The position numbers and the translations under genes are program-made. A stretch of 64,000 nt of DNA from Mya arenaria (Eukaryota; Mollusca; Bivalvia; Myida; Myidae), in the NCBI RefSeq assembly GCF_026914265.1, contig NC_069124.1, positions 89,680,628-89,744,627 of the forward strand, read 5' to 3'. This document shows positions 1,561 to 55,186 of the stretch, one piece after another; position 1 is the stretch's first letter; each line of letters begins with the position of its first letter. Under the pieces are notes generated by a model. The model was not told the DNA's origin. It did not search any database and saw only the letters and a program-made list of their open reading frames with translations.

Positions 1561-1930
1561 GTGTTGACTTATTGTCTTCTGAAGGCCGGCTATCATTATA
1601 GATTGTCTGCTAGAAATACGTATTTCCAATTTCGATGAAACGGTGATGCGATTCCGTTCGGTCACCTATTATAAAGTCGTCGATTTTGAGAGAACAAACA
1701 TGTTGACTTTACTGGTTAGAGTTTCGTCTAGCTAGAATATACAAAAGAATTTTCACGGACATTGTCCCGATCGCAAACAATAGAGGTCACTTAATGGTCA
1801 AGGGGATCCATTATAGTTTATGTTTTATGATCATTATGTCAAACTGTTATCAAGTTATGACACTTTGCTATTTTCTTTTTAATATAGTGTACATTAGTCG
1901 ATATTTTTGTACGAGCTTCATTTTCAAAAA

Positions 1931-4900
1931 CACTACAGGCCTGATATGGATGAAAACCTACACACCGGATCTGGATGGAATTCTTCAGGCCGGATCTGGA
2001 TGAAACTTCACTGGCCGGATCTGGATGAAACTCCACAGGCCTGATATGGATGAAACTCTACAGGCCGGATCTGGATAAACCCAACAAGCCGGATCTGGAT
2101 GAAACCCTACAGGCCGTATCTGGATGAAACCCTACAAGCCGTATCTGGATGAAACCCTACAGGCCGTATCTGGATGAAACCCTACAGGCCGTATCTGGAT
2201 GAAACCCTACAAGCCGTATCTGGATGAAACCCTACAGGCCGTATCTGGATGAAACCCTACAAGCCGGATCGGATGAAACTCTACAGGCCGTAACTGGATG
2301 AAACCCCACAAACCGGATCTGGTTAAAACCCTACAAGCCGGATCTGGATGGAACACTACAAGCCGTTTATGGATGAAGCCCTACAAGCCAAATCTGGATA
2401 AATCTCTAGCGACCGGATCTGGATGAACCCCCACAGGCCGGATCTGGATGAAACTCCACAGGCCAGATCTGGATGAATCTCTTCAGACCGGATCTGGATG
2501 GAACTCTCCAGACCGGATCTGGATGAAACCCCACAGGCCGGATCTGGAAGAAACCCCACAGGCCGGATCCGAAAGAAACCCTACAGGCCGGATATGGATG
2601 AAACCCTACAGGCCGGATCTGGATGAAACCCCACAGGCCGGATCTGGATGGAACCCTACAAGCCGGATCTATATAAAAACCCTACAGGCCGGATCTGGAT
2701 GAAACCCTACAGGGCGGATCTGGGTGGAACTCTTCAGGCCGGATCTGGATGAAACCCTACAGGGCGGATCTGGGTGGAACTCTTCAGGCCGGATCTGCAT
2801 GAAACCCCACAGGCCGGATCCGAAAGAAACCCTGCAGGCCGGATATGGATGAAACCCTACAGTCCGGATCTATATAAAAACCCTACAGGCCGGATCTGGA
2901 TGAAACCCTACAGGGCGGATCTGGGTGGAACTCTTCAGGCCGGATCTGGATGAAACCCTACAGGGCGGATCTGGGTGGAACTCTTCAGGCCGGATCTGCA
3001 TGAAACCCCACAGGCCGGATCCGAAAGAAACCCTGCAGGCCGGATATGGATGAAACCCTACAAGCCGGATCTGGATGAAACCCTGCAAGCCTGATCTTCA
3101 TGAAACCCCACAGGCCGGATATGGATGAAACCCCACAGGCCGGATATGGATGAAACCCTACAAGCCGGATCTGGATGAAACCCTACAAGCCGGATCTTCA
3201 TGAAACCCCACAGGCATGATCTGGATGAAACCCCACAGGCATGATCCGAAAGAAACCCTGCAGGCCGGATATGGATGAAACCCTACAAGCCGGATCTGGA
3301 TGAAACCCTACAAGCCGGATCTTCATGAAACCCCACAGGCCGGATATGGATGAAACCCTACAGGCCGGATCTGGATGAAACCCCACAGGCCGGATCTGGA
3401 TGAAACCCTACAAGCCGGATCTGGATGAAACCCTACAGGCCGGATCTTCATGAAACCCCACAGGCCGGATCTGGATGAAACCCCACAGGCCGGATCCGAA
3501 AGAAACCCTGCAGGCCGGATATGGATGAAACCCCACAGGCCTGATCTGGATGAACCCCACAGGCCGGATCTGGATTAAACCCTACAAGATGGATCTGGAT
3601 GAAACCTTACAAGCGGGATCTATATGAAACCCTACAGGCCGGATCTGGATGAAACCCCACAGGCCAGATCTGCATGAAACCCCACAGGCCGGATCTGGAT
3701 AAAACCCTACAGGCCGGTTCCGAAAGAAACGCTGCAGGCCGGATATGGATGAAACTCTACAGGCCGGATCTGGATGAAACCCTACAGGCCTGGTCTGGAT
3801 GAAACTCTACAGGCCGGATCTGGATGGAACCCTACAAGCCGGATCTATATAAAAAAACTACAGCCGAATCTGGATGAAACCCTGCAGGGCGGATCTGGAT
3901 GAAACCCTGCAGGCCGGATCTGCATGAAACCCCACAGGCCGGATCTGGATGAAACCCCACAGGCCGGATCCGAAAGAAACGCTGCAGGCCGGATATGGAT
4001 GAAACCCTACAGACCGGATCTGGATGAATCTCTACAGGCCGGATCTGGATGAATCTCTTCAGACCGGATCTTCATGAATCCATACAGGCCGGATCTGGAT
4101 GAAACTTTACAGGCCGGATCTGGATGAAACTCTTCAAGCCAGATCTGGATGAAGCTCCTCAGGCCGGATCTTGATGAAACTCTCCAGGCCTGATCTGGAC
4201 GAAAACCTGCATGCTGGATCTGGATGAAACTCCACAGGCCAGATCTGGATGAATCTCTTCAGACCGGATCTGGATGTTACTCTCCGGATCTGAAAGAAAC
4301 CCTACAAGCCGGATCTGGACGACACCCTACATGCCGGGTCTGGATGAAACCCTACATTCCGGATCTAGATAAAACCCTACAGGCCGGGTCTGGATGAAAC
4401 TCTTCATGCCGTGTTTTTGATGAAACCCTTCATACCAGGTCTGGGTGAAACTCTACAGGCCGAATCTGGATGAAACCCTACAGGCCGGAACTGGATGAAT
4501 CTCTGTAGGCCGGATATTGAAGAAACACGACATGCCGGGTCTGTATGAAACTCTACAGGCCGGATCTGGATGAAATTCTATAGGCCGGATCTGGATGAAA
4601 CTCTACAGACCAGATCTGGATGAAACCCTACTGGCCGGATCTGGATGAAACTCTACAGGCTTGATCTGGATGACACCATACAGGCCGGGTCTGGATGACA
4701 CCATACAGGTCGGATCTGAATGAAACTCTACAGGCCGGATCTGGATGACACCATACAGGCCGGGTCTGGATGAAACGCTACAGGCCGGATCTGGATGAAA
4801 CTCTACAGGCCGGATCTGGATGACACCATACAGGCCGGATCTGGATGAAACCCTACAGGCCGGATCTGGATGAAACTCTACAGGCCGGATCTGGATGACA

Positions 4901-5033
4901 CCATACAGGCCGGGTCTGGATGAAACTCTACAGGCCGGGTCTGGATGACACCATACAGGCCGGATCTGGATGAAACCCTTCACGCTGGATCTGGTTGAAA
5001 TCCAACAGACCGGATCTGAATGAATCCGTACAG
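1931..5033. repeat. 25-bp minisatellite, about 124 units
   Basis: A head-to-tail array with the core GGATCTGGATGAAACCCT and a period of 25 bases spans 3.1 kb. Units vary at fixed places (CCTACA or CCCACA or CTTCA; GGCC or AAGCC). Between about 2660 and 3070 a block of eight units (about 201 bases) recurs almost unchanged, so there is higher-order structure. Since 25 is not a multiple of 3, frames run on by rotating through the unit; the stop-free stretches (such as 4603-4983 minus) are by-products of the array and not genes. No exon was found next to it, so whether it is intronic is unknown. Confidence 0.95.
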
Positions 5034-6048: not shown

Positions 6049-9000
6049 TCACTTCGAGGCGGCGGGAGTGGACGACCGGGGCGTGAGGCGGAGGAAGCCG
6101 AGGATGGTGTCCGACACGGACCTGGGTGGCCGGTGGTCTGCAGTACATAGCGTTAACACAATCATCATATACCACAGTAAGTTTAAAGACAAAGGGACCA
6201 TTAATTGTTACTTTTGTTACAAAGAAAATTTCAATCGAAAGAAATGATGATACATTTTAACTTTATCATTCAGACATGTCTTATATAGTCATATGCACGA
6301 AATCTATTAAAGATAGCAGAGCTGAAACACATCGATAAAGCATGTGCGTAGGTAAAGAGTTAGAAACACATGCATGGCTATATGGCGAATGCAAGAAAAT
6401 CCATGAATGTAAATGATACACAATTTTCTGAATAGGTGTAATCAAACGTGCGATCTGTTCAAGCATGGAACATCTAAAACTCGCATGATAATGAATTACC
6501 ATGCACTCAATTAAGTTATCATTCCTGCTTAAAGAATGGCTTAACATCTGGGTACCGCTTTAACTTGATTTTAGGTCTTGCTGAAAAGAAGAAAAGTCGC
6601 CAGGCCAAATCAATGATACTTAAGCAACTTGTATATCGTCCCTGTTGTAAATATATAGCATTATGTTAATATAAAGATGATCGAAATTATATTTACATTA
6701 AAGGACCTTTATTTGGTACGCACCTGCCTGTTTACGGGAGAAATCTTGAATAGCACTGGTGGGGGTCTTTGGCGGTGGCGGTGGAGGCGTTAGGCGGACC
6801 CGGAGCCGGGCGGCCTCCTCCAGTCCTTCGTCCGTCTTCTGGGATATGACAACGTGGCCGAACGCTTGGTCGGCGTCGTAAATGCCGTCATGGAGGATAA
6901 TACGAAAGGCTTGAAAGCTGGAGCGGCACTGAGAAAACTGCAACCTCCGCCCAGTAGAGTCTGACTTATCCTCAAGGCTAGAGTTCCCCTGATAAACAAT
7001 GCGTGTTGTTGTTGTTTTCAGAAAAAAGTATTACATCATTACATTTAAGACAGATTAATAGAATCATTTCGTTTGAAAAACCGTGTTAAGAACATGCCAA
7101 GTATACAACTCACGATGACGTCCACGAAGAATGTGTCGCCAGGAGTCATCATAATGGCGCCCGTTTCCGGCGGATTCTGCTCATCGTAGTCGCGCTCCAG
7201 CCAGCGCGCCCGCCGCTCATCGCTCCTGCTTGCCTGGACACACTCGACTACCAGAATGTGCCGCCGACCTACAGAGAAGAACACATGGATTGTTGGACTT
7301 GAAGTGAAATGAATACTGGCAATGAAAAGCGACGACGCCGGTTTTTAAAAATTAATTCTGTTATGGTTAATAGGAGAACAGCTGGAAATAATTTAAAATC
7401 TATATAAAATATTAATATAATAAATAAAATGCTATGAATATAATATACGACCTGATATCGAGCGTCTTTTTGTCCTTTGATTTATGACAATTATAATTTC
7501 ATACATAGTCGAAACTCGTTATTTCGAAGTATTGGCTATATCGACACTTTTCGCATGTGTTGGGTCTAGTTATACACTTATTTCGAGGTATTTCCCGGGG
7601 TATCAACGACTTCGACAAAGCGGGGTTTGACTGTATATAATAAACACACAATCTCCGTGAAATGGGTGAAAGCGGTCGAAGTTCTTAAACTGATTTTACC
7701 ATAGCTCATTGGGATGAAGTCATACAAATAAGTATAGTTCTGCGCGTGTCACGACCATGAATACCCTAATCCCATCCCCTAAGACCCTCTCACCCACCGC
7801 TTACCGGCGGGATCGGTGTCGTCCTTCCGGATGACGGTGAAGAAGGCGGCTGGGCGGCGCTTCTCCCGCGCGCTACTGATCTGCCGCTGCAGCTGCTGCC
7901 GCTCCTCCGACGTCCCGACCTTCTTTTTCCACGTCGCCACGTAGCTAGAAAGTGGTTAGGAAACTGTACAGTTATATTACTGGTGATATACATATACATG
8001 TAGTAATAACCAAAACATTAATGTTATTGATTATATAACGGCGGGTCCTATATACGAATATAACCACGAAGAATGTGCTATTGAGATAACGGATAAATAA
8101 AACTTAAATAAACAGTGAATTTTATCATTACGCGATGCATTTTACGAAATACAAAGAACGGACTAGAACGGTATATTAAATATTCTTAATAAATGCCAAT
8201 AGTTTGTAGACATACTGCAGAATAAAGCTTAAGTAGGGATGAGGCGATTCAGAGAAGATCGATACTTCCAAAATATCAGCTGAAACAGGAGTGCGATAGC
8301 TTCGATATAAGTTGTACTCAATTCTGATAGCACATGAGTCTCAAAGAAGAACTAAATATTGCAAACTTGAAAATTAGACATAAGCATTGTTTTTCAAACA
8401 TTATTGTCCTTTGTAGAAACAGTCTGCCGAGAATGTTCAAGAAAGTTTGACAGAATAAATGAATTGTTGTATTTAGAAATTTTTCCATCCTTTACTATAT
8501 TTTATTTGTAAAACACTGCACAGAATCAAAATATATCTAGAGGCTAATCATTTGCTGCGTTCATATGGCATGAAATGACCACGCGGTAAAATTTACCACA
8601 CCTCCAGACTAGAGACAAATTTTCTCCAGATGGAAAAAATTACCTCGTGGGTATGTGCTTTTGTATGCACAAATTTGCCCCCCCCTGGGGTTAAAATTGC
8701 CTACGGGGAAATGTTCCTCTGAGGGTAAACCTTGTCATATAAACGCAACATACGCCAAAAGTGTTTTCCATTTTTCTGACCTTAATCAAACACTGTACAC
8801 TGTATAAGAGCGACCTTAACTTTGACCCAAAATAATTTACTAATAATCCTAGAGTATTTATTCACATAATCGTCATATGCACAATGTTTCATTACCATAC
8901 GAATCTATGTATGCATAATGGTGATGAAACTTTGTGGATAAGAATCGATGTATGGTGATGAAACTTTGTGGGTAAGGATCGATGTATGGTGATGAAACTT

Positions 9001-12000
9001 TGTGGGTAAGTATCGATGTATGGTGATGAAACTTTGTGGGTAAGTATCGATGTATGGTGATGAAACTTTGTGGGTAAGTATCGATGTATGGCCATTGATG
9101 AAACTTTGTGGGTAAGGATCGATGTATGGCCATTGATGAAACTTTGTGGGTAAGAATCGATGTATGGTGATGAAACTTTGTGGGTAGGGATCGATGTATG
9201 GTGATGAAAGTTTGTGGGTAAGAATCGACGTATGGCCATTGATGAAACTTTGCGGATAAGACTCGATGTATGGTGATGAAACTTTGTGCGTAGGACTCGA
9301 TGTATGGTGATGAAACTTTGTGCATAGGACTCGATGTATGGTTATGAAACTTTGTGCATAAGACTCGATGTATGGTGATGAGGATAAGAATCGATGTATG
9401 GTGATGAAACTTTGTGCATAAGACTCGATGTATGGTGATGAGGATAAGAATCGATGTATCGTGATGAAACTTTGTGCATAAGACTCGATGTATGGTGATG
9501 AAACTTTGTGCATAAGACTCGATGTATGGTGATGAAACTTTGTGCATAAGACTCGATGTATGGTGATGAAACTTTGTGCATAAGACTCGATGTATGGTGA
9601 TGAAACTTTGTGCATAGGACTCGATGTATGGTTATGAAACTTTGTGCATAGGACTCGATGTATGGTGATGAAACTTTGTGGATAAAACTCGATGTATGGT
9701 TATGAAACTTTGTGCATAAGACTCGATGTATGGTGATGAAACTTTGTGCATAAGACTCGATGTATGGTGATGAAACTTTGTGGATAAAACTCGATGTATG
9801 GTGATGAAACTTTGTGCATAGGACTCGATGTATGATGATGAAACTTTGTGCATAGGACTCGATGTATGGTGATGAAACTTTGTGCATAGGACTCGATGTA
9901 TGGTTATGAAACTTTGTGCATAGGACTCGATGTATGGTGATGAAACTTTGTGCATAAGACTCGATGTATGGTTATGAAACTTTGTACATAAGACTCGATG
10001 TATGGTGAAGAAACTTTGTGCATAAGACTCGATGTATGGTGAAGAAACTTTGTGCATTGGACTCGATGTTTGGTTATGAAACTTTGTGGATAAGACTCGA
10101 TGTATGGTTATAAAACTTTGAAACTTTGTGCATAGGACTCGATGTATGGTGATGAAACTTTGTGCATAGGACTCGATGTATGGTTGTGAAACTTTGTGCA
10201 TAGGACTAGATGTATGGTTGTGAAACTTTGTGCATAGGACTCGATGTATGGTTGTGAAACTTTGTGCATAGGACTCGATGTATGGTGATGAAACTTTGTG
10301 CATAAGACTCGATGTATGGTGATGAAATTTTGTGCATAAGACTCGATGTATGGTGATGAAACTTTGTGCATAAGACTCGATGTATGGTGATGAAACTTTG
10401 TGCATAGGACTCGATGTATGGTGATGAAACTTTGTGGATAAAACTCGATGTATGGTGATGAAACTTTGTGGATAAAACTCGATGTATGGTGATGAAACTT
10501 TGTGCATAGGACTCGATGTATGGTGATGAAACTTTGTGCATATGACTCGATGTTTGGTGATGAAACTTTGTGCATAGGACTCGATGTATGGTGATGAAAC
10601 TTTGTGCATAAAACTCGATGTATGGTGATGAAACTTTGTGGATAAGACTCGATGTATGGTTATGAAACTTTGTGGATAAGACACGATGTATGGTTATGAA
10701 ACTTTGTGGATAAGACTCGATGTATGGTTATGAAACTTTGTGCATAGGACTCGATGTATGGTTATGAAACTTTGTGCATAGGACTCGATGTATGGTTATG
10801 AAACTTTGTGCATAGGACTCGATGTATGGTGATGAAACTTTGTGGATAAGACTCGATGTATGGTGATGAAACTTTGTGGATATGAAACTTTGTACATAGG
10901 ACTCGATGTATGGTTATGAAACTTTGTGCATAGGACTCGATGTATGGTTATGAAACTTTGTGCATAGGACTCGATGTATGGTTATGAAACTTTGTGCATA
11001 GGACTCGATGTATGGTTATGAAACTTTGTGCATAGGACTCGATGTATGGTTATGAAACTTTGTGCATAGGACTCGATGTATGGCTATGAAACTTTGTGCA
11101 TAGGACTCGATGTATGGTGATGAAACTTTGTGCATAGGACTCGATGTATGGTGATGAAACTTTGTGCATAAGACTCGATGTATGGTGATGAAACTTTGTG
11201 CATAGGACTCGATGTATGGTTATGAAACTTTGTGCATAGGACTCGATGTATGGTTATGAAACTTTGTGCATAGGACTCGATGTATGGTTATGAAACTTTG
11301 TGCATAGGACTCGATGTATGGTTGTGAAACTTTGTGCATAGGACTCGATGTATGGTGACTAACTTTGTGCATAGGACTCGATGTATGGTTATGAAACTTT
11401 GTGCATAGGACTCGATGTATGGTTGTGAAACTTTGTGCATAGGACTCGATGTATGGTTATGAAACTTTGTGCATAGGACTCGATGTATGGTTGTGAAACT
11501 TTGTGCATAGGACTCGATATATGGTGATGAAACTTTGTGCATAAGACTCGATGTATGGTGATGAAACTTTGTGCATAAGACTCGATGTATGGTGATGAAA
11601 CTTTGTGCATAAGACTCGATGTATCGTAATGAAACTTTGCGGATACGCAGTTTTTAATCTTTATAAAGTGTTTGAGCTGAAACTACTTTTTTGGCGCAAT
11701 CCTGCCATCCAGCGAATTCAATAACCAGTATTTTTCGGTAAAAATGTATGCCTTAATTTCTGGCCGATAAGATTGTAATGTACAGTGATAAACTACATAT
11801 GCATAATATTATGCTCGTAATCATTTTACGATTTAAACAGCTGAATTGCGTTTCTTCGGTAGTAAACAGTATGGCATTATTTGTTGTTCTGATATTGGTA
11901 CTTGATTATCATTCCTATAAATCCAAACGTGCATCATGTCAAGTGCAACTTAAGTGCATGTCAATATACTAGTAATGCTCGGCTTACATGCTGAAGTGCG

Positions 12001-15000
12001 TCACTTCAAAGATGATGTTACAGTCCACTACTCTCGGTTTAAGGGGGAGCACCTCGAGGGCTTCATCGCTTGCCTCCAGCAGCCCCTCGTCCGCGCAAAC
12101 CACCGCAATCTCGTCATCCGGCCGCATACCGGCACACATCGGGATCTGTACATGCACGCCCTTTTTGGGCTGCTTTCCTGCACAGAGGTTTATACATCAG
12201 TATGATTGTTTTGTAAACCATCGCGAGTTCAAATACCTGAAAACATCTATATTAAACAAATATTATCCCCCAGAAAGAGGGCGGTATTGAATAATGAGCT
12301 TCCGATGAATGGGGATCAACTACTCTTATAAAAAGGCTAACATCATGGACAATAAAAAATTATCGCTCGCATGATCAATTTTTTTAAAGCATCGGTTGAT
12401 ATTCTAGATAGAAATGTTGACTGACACTACGTTCATTGTTCAAATTTAATAAACAACCGAAATGAAAATATTTAATTTAACCTTGAACATTTATTTGATA
12501 GACGTCCGTCAGCAAGTTTGGATTTTGCACGACCGGCGGAGGTCTGACGGCTTTTGTTTTGGATGTCCGAGAGTCACTCTTTCCGGATTTCATCTGTCCT
12601 CGCGAGGCAGGTTTATCCGGGGCCTTACCACCAGAACCCCCTGGCTGGTCACCGCCCGGCTCCAGCTCCTCAACCGACTCCTCCCCGCCCTCGTCGTGCG
12701 TCTCATACACCTGGAACAATCAGTTTATATCGATAAATTTTAACATTGATTTAGGATCAGTATCCGCTCGATGTGACCTTAGCGCTTTAGAGACATAATA
12801 TTATACCGGTCTGATTTAAAAAAAATCTGGCGGAAGTTTTGAAGTTTCTACATCACAATATATGACTTATTTATGACCATGAACACGTTTTCAAGTAGCA
12901 AATACTCTTTTTATTGCTATACGTTCCTTATCCAGCCAGCTAGCCGCCTACCTGCAGACTGAGCACAGTGTCCTCCTCGAAGGTCCCCGCGGTCACATCC
13001 AGTCGAAACTGCTGCTCCATGTCGGAGGTGATGCTAGTCCCCTCGTCTGCGCAGACACGATTCTCCTCGCGCCGCGGACGGAGGAACACCACGCATACAC
13101 AGTTGGTTTCTGGTACAAGCACCACCTCCAGGGGGCAGTAGTGAACCTATAAAGCGAGGGAACATTGTATTGTAGGAATGAGCAAGGGGACAACTATCGC
13201 AACTGCATGTATTTTCCATTTGTTTGTTTTTCTCAAATAATAGCTGGTTGGTATCTTAGATCGTTTCTTACGAGCAATGGGAAACAGTATTAGGTTTTAT
13301 GTATATCCCCTATTTTAAGTACAAGGTGAATGTGTCCACCGACCTTATTCTCTGTGACACAGGCCTCCACAGACCGGTCCTCGTCCTTGCAGTTGATGAA
13401 CCTGAGGACCATCTGCTCCTTTTCAGAGGGTGCCTTGTACAGCGGGAGGTGGATTACAGCCGGACAGTCCTTGTTCACTTCGAACACCCGGATGTGAAAC
13501 ACGTCGCTCAGAACCGTCTCTTCAGCGTGCTGGGGCAAGGACATCGAGCTGTTTTCCGCCTTTTCCCGGCGGCAGTAAAACCCCGTCGGAAACTCCCCAG
13601 GAATGTCAAACTTTGTGATTATGACCCCGACACGCTCGATTTTCATTGCCTTTTCCACTTGACGTCTGCTGATTTTCATTCCTTTGGCCTGTATGTACCT
13701 ACAAGAGACAATAGATTGAGTGATGTATTTACCTGCACGAGTCAGTAGATTGAGTGATGTATGTATCAACACGAGTCAGTAGATTGAGTGATGTATGTAC
13801 CTACACGAGTCACTAGATTGAGTGATGTATGTACCTACACGAGTCACTAGATTGAGAGATGTATGTACCTACACGAGTCAGTAGACTGAGTGATGTATGT
13901 ACCTGCACGAGTTAGTAGACTGAGTGATGTATGTACCTACACGAGTCAGTAGACTGAGTGATGTATGTACCTACACGAGTCAGTAGACTGAGTGATGTGT
14001 GTACCAACACGAGTCAGTAGATTGAGTGATGTATGTACCTACACGAGTCAGTAGATTGAGTGATGTATGTACCTACACGAGTCACTAGATTGAGAGATGT
14101 ATGTACCTACACGAGTCAGTAGACTGAGTGATGTATGTACCTGCACGAGTTAGTAGACTGAGTGATGTATGTACCTACACGAGTCAGTAGACTGAGTGAT
14201 GTGTGTACCTACACGAGTCAGTAGATTGAGTGATGTGTGTACCAACACGAGTCAGTAGATTGAGTGATGTATGTACCTACACGAGTTAGTAGACTGAGTG
14301 ATGTATGTACCTGCACGAGTTAGTAGACTGAGTGATGTGTGTACCAACACGAGTCAGTAGATTGAGTGATGTGTGTACCAACACGAGTCACTAGATTGAG
14401 TGATGTATGTACCAACACGAGTCACTAGATTGAGTGATGTATGTACCAACACGAGTCACTAGATTGAGTGATGTATGTACCAACACGAGTCAGTAGATTG
14501 AGTGATGTATGTACCTACACGAGTCAGTAGATTGAGTGATGTATTTACCTGCACGAGTGAGTAGATTGAGTGATGTATGTACCTACACGAGTCACTAGAT
14601 TGAGTGATGTATGTACCAACACGAGTCACTAGATTGAGTGATGTATGTACCTACACGAGTCAATAGATTGAGTGATGTATGTACCTGCACGCTACACGAG
14701 TCAATAGATCTAGTGATGTATGTACCTACACGAGTCAGTAGATTGAGTGATGCATCTGCCTGCACGAGTCAGTAGATTGAGTGATGTATGTACCTGCACG
14801 AGTCAATAGATTGAGTGATGTATGTTCCAACACGAGTCAGTAGATTGAGTGATGTATGTACCTGCACGAGTCAATAGATTGAGTGATGTATGTACCTGCA
14901 CGCTACACGAGTCAATAGATTGAGTGATGTATGTACCAACACAAGTCACTAGATTTAGTGATGTATGTACCTACACGAGTCAGTAGATTGGGTGATGTAT

Positions 15001-18000
15001 GTACCTGCACGAGTCAGTAGATTGGGTGATGTATGTACCTGCACGAGTCAGTAGATTGGGTGATGTATGTACCTGCACGAGTCAGTAGATTGGGTGATGT
15101 ATGTACCTACACGAGTCAGTAGATTGAGTGATGTATGTACCTGCACGAGTGAGTAGATTGGGTGATGTATGTACCTACACGAGTCAGTAGATTGAGTGAT
15201 GTATGTACCTGCACGAGTCAGTAGATTGGGTGATGTATGTTCCAACACGAGTCAGTAGATTGGGTGATGTATGTACCTGCACGAGTCAGTAGATTGAGTG
15301 ATGTATGTTCCAACACGAGTCAGTAGATTGAGTGATGTATGTACCTGCACGAGTCAGTAGATTGGGTGATGTATGTACCTGCACGAGTCAGTAGATTGGG
15401 TGATGTATGTACCTGCACGAGTCAGTAGATTGAGTGATGTATGTTCCAACACGAGTCAATAGATTGAGTGATGTATGTACCTGCACGAGTCAGTAGATTG
15501 GGTGATGTATGTACCTGCACGAGTCAGTAGATTGAGTGATGTATGTTCCAACACGAGTCAGTAGATTGAGTGATGTATGTACCTACACGAGTCAGTAGAT
15601 TGAGTGATGTATGTACCTGCACGAGTCAGTAGATTGGGTGATGTATGTACCTGCACGAGTCAGTAGATTGAGTGATGTATGTACCTACACGAGTCAGTAG
15701 ATTGGGTGATGTATGTACCTGCACGAGTCAGTAGATTGAGTGATGTATGTACCTGCAAGAGTCAGTAGATTGGGTGATGTATGTACCTGCACGAGTCAGT
15801 AGATTGAGTGATGTATGTACCTACACGAGTCAGTAGATTGGGTGATGTATGTACCTGCACGAGTCAGTAGATTGGGTGATGTATGTACCTGCACGAGTCA
15901 GTAGATTGAGTGATGTATGTTCCAACACGAGTCAGTAGATTGAGTGATGTATGTACCTGCACGAGTCAGTAGATTGGGTGATGTATGTACCTGCACGAGT
16001 CAGTAGATTGGGTGATGTATGTACCTACACGAGTCAGTAGATTGAGTGATGTATGTACCTGCACGAGTGAGTAGATTGGGTGATGTATGTACCTACACGA
16101 GTCAGTAGATTGAGTGATGTATGTACCTGCACGAGTCAGTAGATTGGGTGATGTACCTGCACGAGTCAGTAGATTGGGTGATGTATGTACCTTCACGAGT
16201 CACTAGATTGAGTGATGTATGTACCTACACGAGTCAGTAGACTGAGTGATGTATGTACCTGCACGAGTCATTAGACTGAGTGATGTATGTACCTACACGA
16301 GTCAGTAGATTGAGTGATGTATGTTCCAACACGAGTCAATAGATTGAGTGATGTATGTTCCAACACGAGTCAATAGATTGAGTGATGTATGTTCCAACAC
16401 GAGTCAGTAGATTGAGTGATGTATGTACCAACACGAGTCAGTAGATTAAGTGATGTATGTACCTACACGAGTCAGTAGATTGAGCGATGTATGTACCTAC
16501 ACGAGTCAATAGATTTAGTGATTTTCTTTTGGAAAAAAAAATGTATTACAACAAGTGACTATCACATTTATGATTAATCTATATGATTAGTGTGGTATAC
16601 TAGTAAACATATAAAGGGATCGTACCCGGCGCTCATAGCGATCAGCAGGGTGGCATACATACGTAGATTCTCCCGGATGGAGCTGTTCTTTGCGACATCT
16701 TCAGGCCTCTTTTTCTCCTGTGTAAAAGCGACTACATGAATATAAGCATCGAAAGTTTACTATCCATCATAAACTACAGGGAAACAACAAAAGTAAACAC
16801 GCCTTGCGGGTGCTGTCTAAAAAGACAGTATTGCACGTAAAGGAAGACATGATTTTAACGAGTACATGTATATGGACTCAAGTTTTAAGGTTGATTTACA
16901 AAATACCCAGAAGGCCATTGCCCATAAAGACAAATAAAAATACAATTACAATGTGTGTACATTGTGCATTCATAAATGCATTACAAAATATAACAATTAA
17001 CTAGAAATAAGCCTGAATATCGAATAAGCATATACAACAACTACAGATGTAAATTGAAATACTTCATATTGTAATGTTTTTATCAAAATTGAATTTTGGG
17101 GTTGTTTAAAACATGTTTGTGCTAGTGTTAAATATTCATAGAAATGTACGTCTGTGCTGTCGCTATTTAAATATTCATAGAAATGTACGTCTGTGCTGTC
17201 ACTATTTAAATATTCATAGAAATGTACGTCTGTGTTGTCGCTATTTTAATATTCATAGAAATGTACGTCTGTGCTGGCTCTATTTTCTTAATTAGTTTGT
17301 GGACACAGTATATCTACATTGTTAGTGGCAGCGGTATTGGCGCCTTTAATGAGCAGTCCTTCCATGGCTTCCTGTGCTCCGGTCGCCAGCGCCGTGTGGA
17401 GCGGCGTATCTCCCGTCAGCTGAAACGTACAGAATCACAAGATATAATCGAGTTGCCTAAAACACTAAAAAGAACCTGCATAGACTTTGACGGATATGGC
17501 ATAGATCTGCGTATGAAATAATTATAAAAAACTATTACAAATATTTAAATATAGGCCTTAAACGTACTTTATTCTTCACGTTCGGGTCCATGCCGAGGTC
17601 GACAAGCGTCTCTATGACGTCCATGGTCTGGGAGAGTATAGCTTTGTGTAGTGGCGCGTCACCCTCCTGTGGCAAACGGTAAAAAAGAGTTTTATCGCGC
17701 TTGGTATGTAGCAAATGTACCACATGTAATTACACACATGCGTAACACGTCCCATCAAATAAACCAAAACAGCATTAATTAAATGACTGTAATATGTAGC
17801 TCACGAGTTGATTGAGGGGGTTTAGAGCGCATTTCCGGTGTTTCAGGTATCGGACAAGGTCGAGATAGCCACCCCGCGCTGCGTAGTGCATCGCCGTGTT
17901 CCCGTGCTGGAATTAGAAGACGACAAGAGGATTTATAATCGCCGTGTTCCCGTTCTGGGAATTAAAGACGATGAGAGGATTTATTATCGCCGTGTTTCCG

Positions 18001-21000
18001 TTCTGGGAATTAACTTTAGACGATGAGAGGATTTATTGTTGTGTTCCCGTTCTGGGAATAATAGACGACTAGAGGATTTAAAATCGCCGCGTTCCGCTGC
18101 TTGGAATTAAAACGAGGAAAGGATATATTATCGCCGTGTTCCCGTTCTGGGAATAATAGATGAGGATTTATAATCGCCATTTTCCAGTTCCGGGAAGAAT
18201 AGATGATTAAAGGATATATTAGGCCAAAAAAATAATATACCTGTGTTTCCGGTAACATGGCGAAAAAAATAGGGTCGGTCGGTCTGGTTTTTTTTTTTTT
18301 TTTACAGTTTCGATTTTATGCAAAATCCTGTGCATCATATCAATTTTATTATATCCAAGCATTCCATACGTAACAGATAGTCAGAAAAAAGCATTGTTTA
18401 AATAAATCCTTGCCTTCGACTACCGTATTTTCCCGCCAATTTTGCCGATGAAATTTGTTTGTTTTTGTATACAATACTCCTTTATAAGTCGCGATCGGTT
18501 TTTCAGAACAAATCCAGCACTTCAATTTCTACAAATCTATGATGATGTTCTAGCGAAACAGTCATTTATCAACTAAATTTGTTAATTTGCTTGAAGAAAA
18601 TAGCCGATTTTCTTGTAAACTATTTAAGCTCTCTTATATGGAGGTAGGTTAATTTTCTTACCAACCTAGAAGAAATCCTGGCAATCAAATGGTATCATAC
18701 GGTATTCAACCGACCGATTTAAATACAAACCATAGCTACGCACCTCTGATCTTATAGCTCGTGCTATGACGTCACAAATTGTACTGTTTGATCTGCGGCA
18801 GACACATTCCTATACATGTGTTGTTATAACTTTCGCAGGTTTTTGTTTGGATTTCAATTGATGGGACTTAAATTATGCGAAATAAATTAACATTGATAAC
18901 TGCGGATACATTAATGTAACGATTAATGAAATGTGAACCTCGCAGATAAGCCTGCATGAATTCGCAAAGCCTAATCGTAAGAAGCCTGCATGATATACGC
19001 AAAGCCTAATTTAAAAAACGTAAGTTCTATTTTGGACGTGGATAAATAACAACGCGAACTATATCCTAAATATTTTCATTATAAAGACAGCAAAATGCGT
19101 CTCCTGTGATCAACCACGTGTTTGGACCATAAACATGCGTTTGCCAATTTAAAGATATCGGACAGGGATCGCCGAACTCCGCCATTTTGTTTCCCTGTTG
19201 ACAAAGCGTCTCGGTAATACATAATCAGGCATGAAAGTTTATTTTCCGAGAACAGAGACAGCCAAACAACGAAAATAACGACGAAATAATATATGATTTT
19301 TTTTTACTTTTATGCCTAAAAAACGATAAGGGTCGGCGAGGAAAAAATAGGGTCGGTCGGGTTACCGGAAACACAGGTTGTTTTTTTTTGGGGCCTTATC
19401 GCCGTGTTCCCGTTCTGGGAATAATAGACGACGAGAGGACTTATAAACGCCATTTTCCAGTTCCAGGAAGAATAGATGATTAAAGTATTTATTATCGCCG
19501 TGTTCCGGTTCTGGGAAGGATAGACGACTATAGGATTCATGATCGTCCTGTTCCCGTGCTGGATCATACAGACGACTGGAAGAGTCATCATTAATAAAAA
19601 CCAACCAGTGAGAAAAACAAAATCGATGATGATCAATAAAATTATGATCAATTGTCCTTTTTATTAAGTATAGCACAGGGTTATGCCAAATACGTATGTG
19701 CATCTTAGATAACAAACTGCCAAATTAAACCGACAGTGTCCGAAAGTTACCATGTAAATTAAAAAAAACTACTTGCTTAAAAAACCTCCCTGGTTTAATG
19801 TGTGTTTGAACCCTGGTGCAATTATCACAGAGTGTTGAATATGTGCGTCATTGGCTGAATGTTTGTGTTTGGACATGATGCAAATATCAGTCTCCTTGGC
19901 TGAATGTTTGTGTTAGGACATGACACAAGTGTCAGTATCCTTGGTTGAATGTTTGTGTCTGGACACGATGCAAGTATCAGTAAACATGGCTGAATTTTTG
20001 TGTTAGGACATGACACAAGTGTCAGTATCCATGGCTGAATGTTTGTGTAAGGACATGACACAAGTGTCAGTATCCATGGCTGAATATTTGTGTTAGGACA
20101 TGACACAAGTGTCAGTATTCATGGCTGAATGTTTGTGTAAGGACATGACACAAGTGTCAGTATCCATGGCTGAATATTTGTGTTAGGACATGACACAAGT
20201 GTCAGTATCCTTGGCTGAATAATTGTGTAAGGACATGACACAAGTGTCAGTATCCATGGCTGGATGTTAGTGTATGGACACGATGAAAGTATCAGTCTCC
20301 TTGGCTGAATGTTTGTGTTAGGACATGCAACAAGTGTCAGTATCCATGGCTGAATATTTTTGTTTGAACATGGTACAATTATCAGTCTCCTTGGCTGAAT
20401 GTTTGTGTTAGGACATGACACAGGTGTCAGTATCCCTGGCTGAATGTTTATGTATGGACATGATGCAATTGTCAGTATCCTTGGCTAAATATTTGTGTTA
20501 GGACATGTCAAAAGTGTCAGTATCCCTGGCTGAATGTTTGTGTTAGGACATGCAGCAAGTGTCAGTACCCTTGGCTGAATGTTTGTGTTAGGACATGATG
20601 CAATTGTCAGTATCCTTGGCTGAATGTTTGTGTTAGGACATGACACAAGTGTCAGTATCCTTGGCTGAATGTTTGTGTTAGGACATGACGCACGTGTCAG
20701 TATCCTTGGCTGAATGTTTGTGTTAGGACATGACACAAGTGTCAGTCTCCTTGGCTGAATGTTTGTGTTAGGACATGATGCAAGTGTCAGTACCATTGGC
20801 TGAATGTTTGTGTTAGGACATGATGCAATTGTCAGTATCCTTGGCTGAATGTTTGTGTTAGGACATGACACAAGTGTCAGTATCCTTGGCTGAATGTTTG
20901 TGTTAGGACATGACGCACGTGTCAGTATCCTTGGCTGAATGTTTGTGTTAGGACATGACACAAGTGTCAGTATCCTTGGCTGAATGTTTGTGTTTGGGCA

Positions 21001-24000
21001 TGACACAAGTGTCAGTATCCTTGGCTGATAGTTTGTGTTAGGACATGACACAAGTGTCATTATCATTGGCTGAATATTTGTGTTTGGGCATGACACAAGT
21101 GTCAGTATCCTTGGCTGAATGCTCGTGTTAGGACATGATTCAAGTGTCAGTATCCTTGGCTGAATGTTAATGTTTGGACACGATGAAAGTATCAGTCTCC
21201 TTGGCTATATGTTTGTGCTAGGACATGATGAAAGTATCAGTATCCTTGGCTGAATGTTTGTGTTAGGACATGATGCAAGTGTCAGTACCCTTGGCTAAAT
21301 GTTTGTGTTTGGACATGACACAAGTGTCAGTATCCTTGGCTGAATGTTTGTGGTGTTTGGACATGACGCAAGTGTCAGTATCCTTGGCTGAATGTTTGTG
21401 TTAGGACATGACACAAGTGTCAGTATCCTTGGCTGAATGTTTGTGTTTGGACATGACACAAGTGTCAGTCTCCTTGGCTGAATGTTTGTGTTTGGACATG
21501 ACACAAGTGTCAGTCTCCTTGACTGGATGTTGGTGTTTGGACATGCAGCAAGTGTCAGTGTCAGTATCCTTGGCTGAATGTTTGAGTTAGGACATGACAC
21601 AAGTGTCAGTCTCCTTGGCTGAATGTTTGTGTTTGGACATGACACAAGTGTCAGTCTCCTTGGGTGAATGTTTGTGTTTGGACATGACACAAGTGTCAGT
21701 CTCCTTGGCTGAATGTTGGTATTTGGACATGCAGCAAGTGTCAGTATCCTTGGCTGAATGTTTGTGTTAGGACATGACACAAGTGTCAGAATCCTAAGCT
21801 GAATGTTTGTGTTAAGGCATAACACAAGTGTCAGTATCCTTGGCTGAATGTTTGTGTTAGGACATGACACAAGTGTCAGTATCCTTCGCTGAATGTTTGT
21901 GTTTGGACATGCAGCAAGTGTCAGTATCCTTGGCTGAATGTTGGTGTTAGGACATGCAGCAAGTGTCAGTATCCTTGGCTGAATGTTTGTGTTTGGACAT
22001 GACACAAGTGTCAGTATCCTTGGCTGAATGTTTGTGTTTGGACATGATCCAAGTGTCAGTATCCTTGGCTGAATGTTGGTGTTTGGACATACAGCAAGTG
22101 TCAGTATCCTTGGCTGAATGTTTGTGTTTGGGCATGACACAAGTGTCAGTATCCTTGGCTGAATGTTTGTGTTTGGGCCTGACACAAGTGTCAGTATCCT
22201 TGGCTGAATGTTGGTGTTTGGACATGCAGCAAATGTCTGTATCCTTGGCTAAATGTTGGTGTTTGGACATGCAGCAAGTGTCAGTATCCTTGGCTGAATG
22301 TTGGTGTTAGGACATGCAGCAAGTGTCAGTATCATTGGCTGAATGTTGGTGTTTGGACATGATCCAAGTGTCAGTATCCTTGGCTGAATGTTGGTGTTTG
22401 GACATACAGCAAGTGTCAGTATCCTTGGCTGAATGTTTGTGTTTGGGCATGACACAAGTGTCAGTATCCTTGGCTGAATGTTTGTGTTTGCGCCTGACAC
22501 AAGTGTCAGTATCCTTGGCTGAATGTTTGTGTTTGGGCCTGACACAAGTGTCAGTATCCTTGGCTGAATGTTGGTGTTTGGACATGCAGCAAATGTCTGT
22601 ATCCTTGGCTAAATGTTGGTGTTTGGACATGCAGCAAGTGTCAGTATCCTTGGCTGAATGTTGGTGTTAGGACATGCAGCAAGTGTCAGTATCATTGGCT
22701 GAATGTTGGTGTTAGGACATGCAGCAAGTGTCAGTGTCCTTGGCTGAATGTTGGTGTTAGGACATGCAGCAAGTGTCAGTGTCCTTGGCTGAATGTTGGT
22801 GTTAGGACATGCAGCAAGTGTCAGTGTCCTTGGCTGAATGTTGGTGTTAGGACATGCAGCAAGTGTCAGTGTCCTTGGCTGAATGTTGGTGTTTGGACAT
22901 GCAGCAAGTTTCAGTGTCCTTGGCTGAATGTTGGTGTTTGGACATGCAGCAAGTGTCAGTATCCTTGGCTGAATGTTGGTGTTTGGACATGCAGCAAGTG
23001 TCAGTATCCTTGGCTGAATGTTGGTGTTAGGACATGCAGCAAGTGTCAGTATCCTTGGCTGAATGTTGGTGTTAGGACATGCAGCAAGTGTCAGTATCCT
23101 TGGCTGAATGTTGGTGTTAGGACATGCAGCAAGTGTCAGTATCCTTGGCTGAATGTTGGTGTTAGGACATGCAGCAAGTGTCATTATCCTTGGCTGAATG
23201 TTGGTGTTTGGACATGCAGCAAGTGTCAGTCTCCTTGGCTGAATGTTGGTGTTTGGACATGGCGCAAGTGTCAGTGTCCTTGGCTGAATGTTGGTGTTTG
23301 GACATGCAGCAAGTGTCAGTATCCTTGGCTGAATGTTGGTGTTTGGACATGCAGCAAGTGTCAGTATCCTTGGCTGAATGTTGGTGTTTGGACATGCAGC
23401 AAGTGTCAGTATCCTTGGCTGAATGTTGGTGTTTGGACATGCAGCAAGTGTCAGTATCCTTGGCTGAATGTTGGTGTTAGGACATGCAGCAAGTGTCAGT
23501 ATCCTTGGCTGAATGTTGGTGTTAGGACATGCAGCAAGTGTCAGTATCCTTGGCTGAATGTTGGTGTTTGGACATGCAGCAAGTGTCAGTATCCTTGGCT
23601 GAATGTTGGTGTTTGGAAGTGTAAGTATCCAGTACACGTTTGTTCGTACTCGATAGAAGTGATACACCCTGGCTGTTATAATTTGTGTGTTTGAACATCT
23701 CAGATGCAAGAATAAAGGAGAGGGATGGTACTGACCATGTTTGTTCTCTGCAGGTCCTCCCCTACCGCTTCCATCAACTTAACGAGCTCGAGTTTGCCGC
23801 GCCGCGCCGCAAGGTGGAGCGGGTTGTCCCCCCTCTGAAACGCACAATACACATGCACACTGTCAGGATACTTATGATATACATGTATTGTTTTTACTAA
23901 CTCTACAACCAACCATCAATCCATTTATCAATTAATCATTTGCATTAAAACAAATGTAGTCAAAGTTTGTTAATTGAGTTGCAAACCTAATCCGGTGCTT

Positions 24001-28825: not shown

Positions 28826-31800
28826 CTATAAGTCAACACAGAATGGTCTACGCTTTCTCCTCGTTACTGTTTCATCCACATTCATAAAATCTCCATCGAA
28901 GTTGTCCTCGCCACTTTCCACCCACTCTGGACTGTGTGCGCCCTGGTAGAAATTCTTGTTTTCGCGGTCTTGACTCCTGCGGAAGTACCATGTGTCGGGC
29001 ACCTGGTGAAGATACTCTCGACCCTCGCCAAGCGACAGGTACCAGTTATCATCATCCCCGTTATCATTCATTGAACTCTGTGAATGCTGGTTGTCACTGA
29101 ACTTTATTTTATCAGTGTTTTGAATCTTTTCGTTTGCGTGTTTCGTGTATTTCCTGCTTGGTGGGGCATCACTGTTTCCATCAATGTTCTGTTGCAGGAA
29201 ATCATCACTAGACCCTTGCTCCTGTGCATTTTTGTCTTTTGTGCCTTTAAACCTCTCCTCTGTATTAGTCTTTTTCTGTTCCGAATCTTTTATTGATTTT
29301 TTGTTTGCTGGTTCGAGATTGATTTCACTCAAAATACATGAATTTTCTTCTGAAATAACAACCAAATCACAGATTAACAATTAAAACATGATTGTCACTT
29401 GAAAACAAGCTTTTTCTATTATGAAGTATAACTTATATTAAAAATTTAATCAAGGAAGAAAACCACTAAGAGTTGCAAAATAGTGTAAATCAATAAACAG
29501 TTTGAGTGACACCTGGGAGTAGGACTTCTTATTAGTCCCAGGTGACACACACCACTGCTGTATTTCCATCCATATCACGTTTATGGAGGTGTTACGTCAC
29601 TTACTTATGGCAAGCATCTTCTTCTTTCTGCGACAGTAGTTCCTGTTACCATTGGCGACATGTACCTGCCAGCAGCACAGGAAGCGATGGTCGTCATCGC
29701 CCTGGGGTAGAGGGGAGATTTCAATGCCCGCCTGGTGCCTCCACCACTGCCTCTGTTTGGCAAACCACCCTTGCCCAGCTTCACTAAGCAACGGCACCAT
29801 CATACCCTCTACAACAATGTGATAGGCATCATGTTACTTGCTGAGTTTGTAAGAGTTAATATAATTTATGCACTGCACTTTACATGAAAATTCTTGCTAA
29901 ACTATTGTTTTGAAAACAAAAGTATGTTCCAAACCATGCATTGCTTGTCTCATTCTGTTCAACCTGATTGCATTTTGGGTGTTGTGTCTATGGGGTAAAT
30001 ATTTTGACCGAGTTTCGTGAACATCCTACAAAAGGTTAAGGAGATAAAGAGTGGGTCTCAAGGGTTTAGGGGGTACAGAGTGGACATGAAATGTACGACT
30101 CGAAGCCTAGACCTTGAGCCTGCGATCCTGTAATGTTGGTTTTGCACGTCATCTCGATGTGGTGCTTATTTGACACGAGCAGGACGGACATACGCTAGTT
30201 GGGCAAATAAATTTAATCAGTAAACCCGCGTGTGTATTTTTCCACGTAGCAAAGGACGTAATGACAACAAACCAGTATAGTTAAAGAAGAAGTCTGCAAG
30301 CGATATCAGTTGCCATGGATCAGACTCCATGAGACGTCGGTACTGTTTGGCATTCAGGCTGCTGATTGTCTTACTCACATCCTCCGCTTTCTCTGCCGTT
30401 GTCATTTCGTTGTTGTCTGAAATAAGCAATATTGAATTAAGCAAAAAAATAAAGAAGGCAATTTCTTACTTCCATGCTCACTATACAAATTAGTGAAATC
30501 AAAGCTCATAAATTCAACTATTTAGACAAGTGTTTTTTAAATCTTAAAAAAAATGAAACCCTATGTCTCTATAGGTAAATCAGTGAACTTACCAACTTTT
30601 GAACCAAACTTCCTCCTTTTTGTGTTCGCCTTTAAGTTATCATTCTCATCGAAGGTTTTCTTCTCTTTACAGCTTTTTCCACCCTTCTTGTTGCCACGAG
30701 GATGTGATTTTCCTTTGTGGAACCACTTGTTCACTTTATTGGTCATTTTCTGGTGGAAACGGTCAGTGAGCTGCTGCAGGCGGTCAGTGAATGTCTGCTG
30801 GATGCGCATGACAGACGGCTCATTATCCTCCCAGAACTGACCAGAAATGTTCCTCACCTAGGAGAATATGGTCAAGCATAATCAAGCAATCATAGCTATT
30901 TTTACAAATTTTTAAAATTTTCTAAGTTGCCAAATTGTTTTAAGTCTGCCTTGTCCTTTCTCCTAATGAAATTAGGTTTCACTAGCCTTTCTGCCGACTA
31001 CGTCACAATTATTTTGTATGCCATTGGGCCAATTGTTCAGAACTTTGTTAAAGTTAACATTGTTTTTAATGTCATCGTTGTTAACTTTCACATCTTTATT
31101 GCTCTGAATATTAATTGATTCACTTGTGATCTGCAGTATTTCTATCACAATAACAACTGTTTCAGCTATACTGGTTTCATTTAAATGTGAGCACATTATC
31201 AAATAGTTCAAATTTCACGTAAAAAAATAACAAGATGTTGTAAATCACGTTATTAACTTTAAGTTCTGAACCATCGGTTTAATTATTTTGTTCACATTCG
31301 AAAATTCATTGTTCTATGCAGGATTTTGATATTACACCAGGGGATTTTTACGCGACGAAATTTTGCCCAATATCTGCATTTATAATATAAGAATAAATAC
31401 AGAAATACATTCAAATTACAATAATTTTTGGACTTAGTCATCATGGTCCTTCATGGAATTTCACACACATAATATTATTGATGCTTTCCACTGTCAACCT
31501 TAAGCAAGTTTTGAAAAAGAAAAACATTTTTTTTTTTTAAATTCCAGGGGATGTGGATCCCCCAGCGGGGGACCAAGGGATGGGTCGAAATTCCGGGGGA
31601 TTCCGCACCCCCGCCGGGGGATATGGCATGTATGTATGCTTCAACCTGAACTGATGCAACAGACACAATATATAGCAATATATAGCAAGCGCTTCAACCT
31701 CAAAGCATATAATTAAAGGTAAAAAGCATACACTGATTTTATACAAAATTTAACCATTTATTACAACATTATCCTCTAAAACTCAAACTTGTTGCTGTTT

Positions 31801-34800
31801 TATGAAAGTTAGAGTCACTACCTTCTCCCAGGCATGTTCAATCTGCCCTCGTGTTTTGTTCATCATCTTGAAAACTGTTTCTGTCCACAAATTGTCTGCA
31901 TGCTGCTCTCCAGAACTTTCACTTCCCTCATCAGCAACTTTATGGCCTGTATTTGAAAATGTTTCTTTCGTCTGTGTATGTTCCTCATGTACATTTGACT
32001 CGGGTTCGTCTTTTTTGTAAGGTTTCCTCCCTTGTGTATTGTAATCCCTCTGAGGTTCCTTATAGGTATTGTCCCCCTGGTGAGGTACATCCTGGGTGGG
32101 TCCTGTAAACACCCCACTCGACTTCAGGAACTCCAATACAGTGTGCGGCAGATGTTTATCAGCGTACTCATGCAGGCCGGCTCCGACCTCTGACCATGCT
32201 ACATTCATCTGCAAATGACAGAATAGTATCTTTATCAGGGTTTGAAAAGTCAAATCAGTTAAGAAATCATGGGCGACATCAGCATCAGAAAGAGAAGAAA
32301 TAAAAGAATGCGATCAGGATATTTACCTTTGACATTTCTGTTCTTAAGGCATCACTGAGCTCACTGAAGCAGCCTTCCCAGGTCTGCCCTGTTCTTTCAA
32401 AACCATCCGCTTTTTTTAATTCATCCTTCAATGTCAGGATTTCACTTGCCTGTTCTTTTATGACTGAGGATTTTTTTTCTGTTGCCAACCTTAATCTCTG
32501 TATTTCTTCTTCCAATTCTTGTTTATGACTTAGTTCAGCCTCCAAGTAGTCTTTTTCATTGATAGCTTCATATTGCCTAGCCTTTAAAGTATCAACTGCT
32601 TGCTTGTTGAATGCTTCCATATCCCCAAATGTCTTCTTAACATCAGCCAGAGTTTGAACAAGGTCACCTTGATATACGAATGGCTCTTCCATGTTGAGGA
32701 GATCAAGAAGTACCAGTGTTGCTTGCTGCCTCCATGTTGAGCAGTCCGCTTGAGCTCCAGAGTCCTGTTGAACAGGCTTCCTGTAAATAATGCACAAGAC
32801 CGCCCCATGAGCCCATTGCAATGGGAGAAAAAAGATAACAGAAACAATTGAAACAAGTAATCAAGAATAAGCTAATTTATAACATGAGTAATTGTTTAGA
32901 TCCATATATAATGAAGCCATGATCAACAAAGTTAAACCAACTTACACATGAATACCGGAAGAAGTGTTATTCATGTAGAGTATGCAAAATGATGCCGCCA
33001 GAACAGAAAAGACTGCCAACAGGAGGAAAAACAGCACTTCAGGTACTACAAGAAGGATTAAAGTCATGTGATGTTATGTCATGATCTCAAATCTAGTTGT
33101 ACAGTTTTATTGAACAAATGATTGTATATTTACTTTTTCTGATAGCTTATGATTGACATTAAAGCCTAGATATATCTCAATTATGGTTAAAAATGATGGT
33201 ATCAACGGGTGTATCACGATAATTTAAGTGCTGCTTAAAATACTAGTAGTATTAACTGTCGTCGCCAGGCTTCAAATATTCTTTGTTTCATGTCCCTCGA
33301 CACAGATAGGTAAAGTGTAGGTCAGTTGGTTGATACAAAGTTTTGTTTCTATATTTTTCCACAATAAACAAAAGAAGTGATGTTGCTTTTTTCATTAAAA
33401 GAACTGGGCCGAACAGACAAAGAGAAATACTGCTACATTTGCTGTGTTGAGAGAGCATTCTTGGCAAAAACTATAAGATCAATTAAAACAGGAGCTGTCA
33501 CAAAAATGTGAGAAATGCCCCCAAATAGCCTCGTTTAACAGGTAAGTATGTGGACTTGTGCAGACACATAGCCTTCATATAACTTCTTTTTATGATGACC
33601 TCCAATACCTTCCCATGAAGTTTGGAAATATTGATCTACAACATTTTTAAAGAGCAAAGTATGCACCGGCATATGGAAATTATGTCACTGCAAGATACAA
33701 TGGATGTCAACCCGCCACTACATGTGTATGCCTAATGTTCTTCAGTTATTGATCAGAAACTCATTTTCAGCTTAAGGTCACCACAGCCTTGATCTTTGAC
33801 CCACTGACCTCAAAATCAAAAAGGTTCATCTGTTGATCATTAACAAAATGCCTACCAAGTTCAAGGTCTCTTAGCTATCCATTGATTCCAAAATCAAAGA
33901 GTTCGTCTGCTAGTCATAACCAACCTGCCTGCCAAGTTTGATGTCTCTGGGCCTAAGAGTTCTTCAGTTATTAATTGGAAAATATTTTCATTGCCAAGCT
34001 AGAAGAATAGCTTGACCTGCTATGGTGTATTTGTAGAATAGCTTGACATGCCATGGTGTATTGTAGAATAGCATGACATGCCATGGGGGACTTGCAGAAC
34101 CACACATATTCAAATACATTAATTTAAGTATTCTGCAAGGGAAGTGATTGAGAAAAATATAGCCAAAACTGTGTTTGAAACTAACAGTTTTTATTCCAGG
34201 CTGCAAAAAATAAACAAGAGGGCCAAAATGGCCTATATAGCTCACCCGATGGGCAAAGGGTTCTAAAGTTATTGATTGGACAACATACTTGACCCCACCG
34301 GCCCAAACAACCCACCACAGGTGAAACTATAACACATCCTGTTTTTTAAACGGTGTACAAAAACATCAACAAGAGCTGTCACAGAAACAGCGCGCTCGAC
34401 TATTCCGCCGCTTTTCAGTGTAAGGATTGAAAAGATTTGGGGAAACATGCATAGATCACTGTAAAATTAGATTTCAATGCAATACATGATGTATTTGCTG
34501 AGATATTAACATAAATTTGGTAACATGCAAAATTTTAACCAGAATTTCTAATTCCAATATTAAAGGGCCATTATTTTCAAAGTACAGTTATCTAACTTGG
34601 TTATTCAAGTAGGTTGGGTGGTTGAGTACCATTGTATCAAATCTCAATGCAATACATCAAGTAGTCGCTGAGATATTAACCTATGTGTGCTAACATGCAA
34701 AACCTTAACCAGAATTTCTAAGTCGCATAATAAAGGGGCAAAAATGATAAAATATGCAAGATAAAGTTATCTTACTTGATTAATTAAGAAGGTTGAATGG

Positions 34801-42290: not shown

Positions 42291-42699
42291 GTTACGCAGA
42301 TGATATAAGCGAATAAGGGCATTGTCATATGCAAAAATCATATACAAAAGGACATGATATGTCACGCAGTCAATTGATTACGAAGGAGAGATCAGTTTTT
42401 TAGATGTTTGTTATCCCCAATTTAATGTATTGATAATGTTCCGAATATTTTAAAAGCAGAATAGCATTTTTATTCACAGACTTGATTCATGTAAAAAAAT
42501 AATTGCTTTGGGTTAAACCTGTCAGACGTATCTTGTGATATATACTGAGTTGACAGATTCACGGGTTTGGTCACAAAATTTGGCGTGCGAACATTTTCAT
42601 ATGGTGACATAGTTCGAGGGTGCCAGAGAAGGATTTTCGCTATCACTCCGAAAGTCAACCTATAAACAATTGAAGCGCTCATTTGTTTTTAAAAGGTGT

Positions 42700-43380
42700 T
42701 TTCTGTCACGCCTATAGCAAGCAAGAAAGGAATTTGAATAATGCCCCAGCAAGGCTAGTTCAACGTATGCTCTTTCAAATGCAGCGTTATGACATTGAAG
42801 TAAAATATCAACCGGGCAAGAACATGCCTATTCCAGATAAGTTATCTAGGAAATATGTTCCTAATACATGCCCAAGTCTGACTGAAGACATTGACACACA
42901 AGTAAACATGGTTATGGTTAGTTCACCGATAAATGATCAGAAAATGACAGAAATTAGGACAGAGACAGACACAGACTCTCAACTTGTCCCATTGAAGCAA
43001 GTAATTTGCAAGGGTGGCCTAACAATATAAAGAATTATAAGTCAGAAATACTAGACTTCTGGAATTATAGATGTTGGTGTGAAAGGAAACAAAGTTGTCA
43101 TACCCAATTATCTCAGAAAAACATGTTTAGACATTGTTCATGCATTTTGGTATGGACGAGTGCTTGAAAAGGACACGAGATGTCATTTTTTTGCCTCGAA
43201 TTTCAGAGGAAATTAAAATGTTAGTTTTGAGCTCTATTATATGCTAAGTGCACAGAAACTCACAAAAGAACCCATGCAATCTCATGATATTTCAAAATAT
43301 CCATGGCAAATGGTAGCCACAGATCTGTTTTCAATAGATGATAAAAAAGCTACTTGTTTTAGATTACTATTACCATTTCT
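42700..43380 (+). mobile_element. Ty3/Gypsy-type LTR retrotransposon fossil (partial pol)
   Basis: The segment retains the end of the RNase H region (RYDIEVKYQPGKNMPIPDKL is the family signature) and traces of the integrase region that follows in Ty3/Gypsy pol. It is a short broken fragment with several breaks. No LTRs, gag or remainder of pol were found, and foldback elements flank it on both sides. Old, judging by decay. Confidence 0.75.
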
Positions 43381-54895: not shown

Positions 54896-55186
54896 TGTGT
54901 ATGCCCATCGTATTCCATTGATTAAAATTAGGCACAATTAAATAGAGGATACTTGTTCGTTTCACATCGTTATATATTTCACCGAGTGAGCAACAAAAGC
55001 TATATTTCACGAGTGGGGCAGCGTCGAGTGAAATATTCACTTTTGGTGTTCACGAGGTGAAATATATTGCGAAATAAACCTTTATTTTTATTTTTAATGT
55101 ATGCATAAAAACGATATCAAATGACATTTAGATGCATTTTTTAGAAAAGCGCGCCAAATTGTATGCGCATTTCGTAAATGGCGTCG

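Follow-up and report, generated by a model that had tools for sequence, protein, structure and literature searches.

A 34-bp minisatellite repeats a probable 3' splice site in an intron of an ankyrin-repeat gene of Mya arenaria

Introduction

A minisatellite in the genome region studied here fills nearly a whole intron and runs into the downstream exon. This raises the question of whether each repeat unit carries a copy of the genuine 3' splice site and, if so, how the gene is spliced past the copies. The window analysed is a stretch of 64,000 nucleotides from Mya arenaria (GCF_026914265.1, contig NC_069124.1, positions 89,680,628 to 89,744,627). All coordinates refer to this window.

Results

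The gene carrying the array

The array belongs to a partial gene model on the minus strand. Its 12 exons, from 24286 to 6724, join in a single open frame and have AG before and GT after each of them. The gene product contains an Ank_2 match (Pfam, E 3.2e-22). Ankyrin-protein matches cross the 5' junction of the exon 16717-16626, each stretch being weak alone. In the region past the ankyrin repeats, Pfam gave no non-ankyrin match and the PDB gave no match, both at E up to 1. This region may resemble ZU5/UPA proteins such as PIDD. The GC3 of the gene model is 0.70 and four of the 12 exons start with GT.

Of the 17,563 bases that the gene model spans, 9,964 (57%) are arrays. Three further intronic minisatellites are present in the same gene at 8918-11639 (34 bp), 19851-23617 (45 bp) and 17128-17285 (39 bp). 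One of its introns also holds two short arrays apart from each other, at 17890-18206 and 19396-19562, whose 48-bp units are similar. A large minisatellite with 124 copies of 25 bp (1928-5033) is found downstream, past the modelled exons.

A second gene may be represented by several minus-strand open reading frames at 28826-32860, of which three gave nothing in Pfam at E up to 0.01. The peptide of a plus-strand frame (42674-43030) may resemble the terminal part of a reverse transcriptase/RNase H from a retroelement. A dense nest of 20 inverted-repeat pairs is found at 55186-57550, where no open reading frame of at least 110 amino acids is listed. The largest pair (55189-55490 and 56938-57239) comprises 302 nt with 95% complementarity. 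The nest may represent a mobile element without coding sequence. Rfam and tRNA searches of the whole window returned no matches.

Architecture of the array

The array extends over 13690-16522 on the minus strand. TRF reports a period of 34, 83.0 copies and 92% matches. Splitting of the minus-strand reading on the repeat core also yields 83 units, which agrees with the original prediction of about 83 34-bp units repeating a 3' splice site. The units are spaced by 34 bp with the exception of one spacing of 30 bp and two of 41 bp; each of the latter results from a 7-base insertion repeating CGTGYAG. The consensus of the unit is ACATCACTCAATCTACTGACTCGTGTAGGTACAT and, by its columns, corresponds to 25 nt of the intron 3' end followed by the first 9 nt of the exon. 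There are 35 distinct sequences among the 83 units. Blocks of units recur within the array: units 12-17 equal units 39-44, and units 67-72 share 99% identity with six units located 7 units further on. This makes local duplication the probable way in which the array expanded.

The intron, delimited by the exon phases of the gene model, spans 13699-16625 (2,927 nt). The array occupies 96.5% of it, close to the 97% expected beforehand. It starts 103 nt past the donor and ends 9 bases into the exon. The non-array part (16523-16625) carries a T9 tract adjoining the array.

The exon-like part of the unit is preceded by TAG in 30 units, CAG in 32, AAG in one and TTG in 20. As anticipated, most units keep TAG or CAG (62 of 83), and with AG present in 63 of 83 units dozens of near-identical AGs do precede the exon. 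A branch-like TACTGAC is found in 55 units and TACTAAC in four. The A of TACTGAC is 9 nt from the G of the AG in its own unit; to the corresponding G one unit further on, the distance is 43 nt. By the rules on branch-point distance, this spacing suggests that unit 82 supplies the branch site for the last acceptor.

The array runs across the probable exon junction

The upstream exon (16626-16717, 92 nt, minus strand) seems to complete the last ankyrin repeat and ends in the donor cgg/GTACGA, the slash marking the junction. The downstream exon (13344-13698, 355 nt, minus strand) begins with GTACATACAGGCC, starting in phase 2 and ending in phase 0. There are 11 GT sites between 16696 and 16502. 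Those at 16625 (donor score 5.85) and 16658 (3.49) are in frame with an exon start at 13698; the scores of the gene's 12 donors range from 3.47 to 9.01. The best donor, 16625, fits TAG/GTACATAC. On the grounds of reading frame and donor score, 16625/13698 is taken as the junction, and the sequence supports 13698 as the exon start. The repeated unit accordingly spans what is probably the genuine 3' splice site and nine exon bases.

The array would meet the exon merely by accident, with no exon sequence repeated, if the true start were CAG/GCC, located 10 nt downstream at 13688. An AG is present there with a score of 6.33 (generic acceptor matrix). This start is in frame with the GT sites 16600 and 16696 among the 11, or with the donor 17318 if exon 16717-16626 is skipped. 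However, 16600 (0.03) and 16696 (-3.59) score below all 12 donors of the gene, the best donor 16625 meets stops when joined to 13688, and skipping would cost the protein what seems to be the end of its last ankyrin repeat. A start at 13688 is therefore rated as very improbable.

With the start at 13698, the overlap of array and exon is GTACATACA. The overlap itself had been predicted correctly, but it comprises nine matched bases, one more than the eight proposed. To judge this overlap, 34-mers over the 24 splice junctions of the gene were searched in the whole window at a threshold of at least 80% identity. The 13698 junction has 78 other matches, whereas the remaining 23 junctions have none; at this identity, none of the other arrays reaches a model splice junction and could count as a further repeat of this kind. 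As a control, 300 random 34-mers were drawn from the gene span, and 56% of these have a match at the same threshold because arrays fill 57% of the span. The sequence match between the array and the 13698 junction is not due to chance. Arrays are common in this gene, and one of them may lie across a junction by luck of position.

The terminal unit holds the best-scoring acceptor

The terminal unit (number 83, 13690-13723, minus strand) holds the probable genuine acceptor. As to an escape of this boundary unit from homogenisation, it has one private and one rare change, but its three mismatches to the consensus in total are not unusual (range 0-9 over the units). Two of its changes convert a purine of the tract to T. 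A19T is private to this unit (1 of 83), and G23T is rare (2 of 83), its other copy being in unit 23 at 15761. Together with a commoner C-to-T change, A19T turns TACTGAC into TATTGTC, which occurs in the terminal unit only. One such gain for the tract is seen in four of the 82 other units and two gains in none (Poisson p about 0.001, a post hoc test). Since the two purine-to-T changes are combined there alone, the terminal unit has the best pyrimidine tract: 11 of 14 positions are pyrimidines, compared to 7-10 at the other 64 unit AGs. The longest pyrimidine run at the terminal AG is 6, a length common to two other unit AGs.

Acceptors were scored with the generic matrix and with a second matrix derived from the gene's 11 other acceptors. 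With the generic matrix, 13698 ranks first of the 92 AGs in the intron (9.72; next 8.40), and the median of the 88 array AGs including 13698 is 4.48. The gene-derived matrix also ranks it first of 92 (3.60; next 2.87), with the acceptors of the gene ranging from -1.70 to 4.40. Units at the edge of an array may, on the other hand, diverge for other reasons.

Loss of AG in part of the units

In 20 of the 83 units AG is replaced by TTG. The original prediction suggested that the AG-less classes might have been selected to silence surplus acceptors. The number of such units would be compatible with this, as would the column of the A, which is one of the four most variable columns of the unit (minor counts 33, 21, 20 and 20). 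All units were aligned and the loss of AG was compared with the distance from the exon; it shows no preference for either end. The mean index of the units concerned is 42.8 with 42.0 expected (p = 0.87), and they form 27 runs with 31.4 expected (p = 0.13), though both tests are weak as the units of an array are not independent. The last 10, 15, 20 and 27 units contain 2, 2, 4 and 8 of them (expected 2.4, 3.6, 4.8 and 6.5). Two of the subclasses are regional: TTGGA is restricted to units 4-50 and TTGGTACAC to units 63-74. A further subclass, TTGGTACAT, is scattered over units 3-62. With neither a position effect nor significant clustering, with two regional subclasses and with 63 AGs remaining, selected silencing finds no backing here and is the least probable of the explanations considered. 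The pattern resembles what a small number of mutations copied by duplication would give, and the loss would then reflect drift, spread through amplification.

Predicted outcome of splicing to other array AGs

With 16625 as the donor, the frame behind every one of the other 87 array AGs meets a stop codon, most commonly (48 of 87) some 8 codons past the junction. This translation covered the AGs inside the array; four further AGs of the intron lie outside it. If all 92 AGs competed naively and additively by score, the terminal acceptor would receive 20.5% and be outweighed 3.9 times by the other 91. Thus, site strength alone fails to explain correct splicing. Either real splicing discriminates more sharply, or the decoys are commonly used and the products are cleared by decay or corrected.

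Frequent use of the decoys would yield unproductive transcripts, and the copy number could then tune the output of the gene by analogy with a repeat in human CBS, where activity is lower with more repeats according to the available text of PMC5188458. Both the additive competition and the stops behind all 87 AGs are in line with such tuning. The mirages of amphioxus (see Discussion) in Adh3, TnC and globin genes, however, are reported without disturbance of the mRNA in the parts of the sources available. Tuning of this kind is considered unlikely, though less so than the other alternatives.

Correction of decoy splicing is conceivable as well. A decoy splice rebuilds a donor, CGG/GTACAT, with a score of 4.03 compared to 5.85 for the real donor and inside the range of the gene's donors. 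Most units read AG/GTACAT, with GT directly following 62 of the 65 unit AGs. Most units combine an acceptor with a branch-like site and a donor that a splice would rebuild, and the array could act as an error-correcting ladder, in which the rest of the intron would be removed stepwise until the tract-improved last unit is reached. Tandem acceptor-donor pairs of this kind define recursive splice sites in the accessible part of PMC8605326. AG and GT are both kept in 60 units, both lost in 10 and found one without the other in 13, two of which carry an inserted AGGT copy. This coupling could also be produced by a single lineage with both sites lost, and AG/GT follows simply from an exon beginning with GT, as do four of the 12 exons of the gene. 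Ten units have kept GT without AG. Furthermore, the ratchet points of flies are described in PMC8605326, as far as available, as lying mostly in long introns, and an intron of 2,927 nt is short relative to the usual hosts of recursive sites. A self-correcting ladder, read from the sequence, is thus regarded as improbable. If it were true, a 3' splice site could be amplified 80-fold harmlessly, and this would account for amphioxus mirages leaving the mRNA undisturbed.

Discussion

Tandem repeats across exon-intron boundaries are described in amphioxus as mirages, among others in the globin genes BflGb6 and BflGb9 (PMC3087553, available text). BflGb6, which has 6 units in one haplotype and 3 in another, shows joint duplication of intron end and exon start. 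For the Adh3 mirage, cited in the same source, units of 10-72 bp and both length and somatic instability are given. The Adh3 data and RT-PCR suggest that regular splicing is kept there though many units carry AG/GT (PMC3087553, same portion). A mirage of 2-7 units in PGBD5 is described in PMC3902484, whose available text also cites TnC.

The array in M. arenaria resembles these mirages in that its units span the boundary (25 intron and 9 exon nt, with the junction placed by frame and donor score), and in that many but not all units carry the signals (AG in 63 of 83, AG and GT in 60 of 83). It differs in size, with 83 units compared to the 6 and 3 given for BflGb6 and 2-7 for PGBD5 in the available texts, and in repeating the 3' side only, together with nine exon bases. 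The 31-bp VNTR of human CBS, c.1444_1467+7(16_21), likewise crosses an exon-intron boundary and by its notation comprises 24 exonic and 7 intronic bases (PMC2630376; PMC5188458, both as available). Unlike the present array, it is located at the donor side and has 16-21 units. The AG directly followed by GT is shared with recursive ratchet points, but those of flies are conserved and mostly found in long introns in the accessible part of PMC8605326, whereas here tandem copies are packed into 2.9 kb. Literature searches, judged by title, found nothing relevant on recursive splicing in tandem repeats or minisatellites; judged by title and the start of the abstract, they found nothing related on repeats carrying acceptors.

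Most probably, the array belongs with the mirages of amphioxus as a minisatellite that spans a splice junction, and the gene tolerates it by virtue of its terminal acceptor being the strongest. A stretch of 34 nt across the junction, 25 nt on the intron side and 9 nt on the exon side, would have been duplicated in tandem. Local duplication of blocks presumably expanded it to the present 83 units, all of which are intronic except for the last 9 bases. Most decoys retain a tract broken by purines, which may weaken them in splicing relative to the terminal unit. In transcripts spliced to a decoy, the frame meets a stop codon, and nonsense-mediated decay would be expected to remove them.

What is new is a large case, with 83 units, of a repeat type known from amphioxus genes. 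The locus is a natural experiment with dozens of near-identical acceptors in one intron. As the unit with the probable genuine acceptor is only three bases off the consensus, the choice of the spliceosome among many AGs becomes directly testable. The array may also bear on the growth of introns or their origin from duplicated AG/GT sites.
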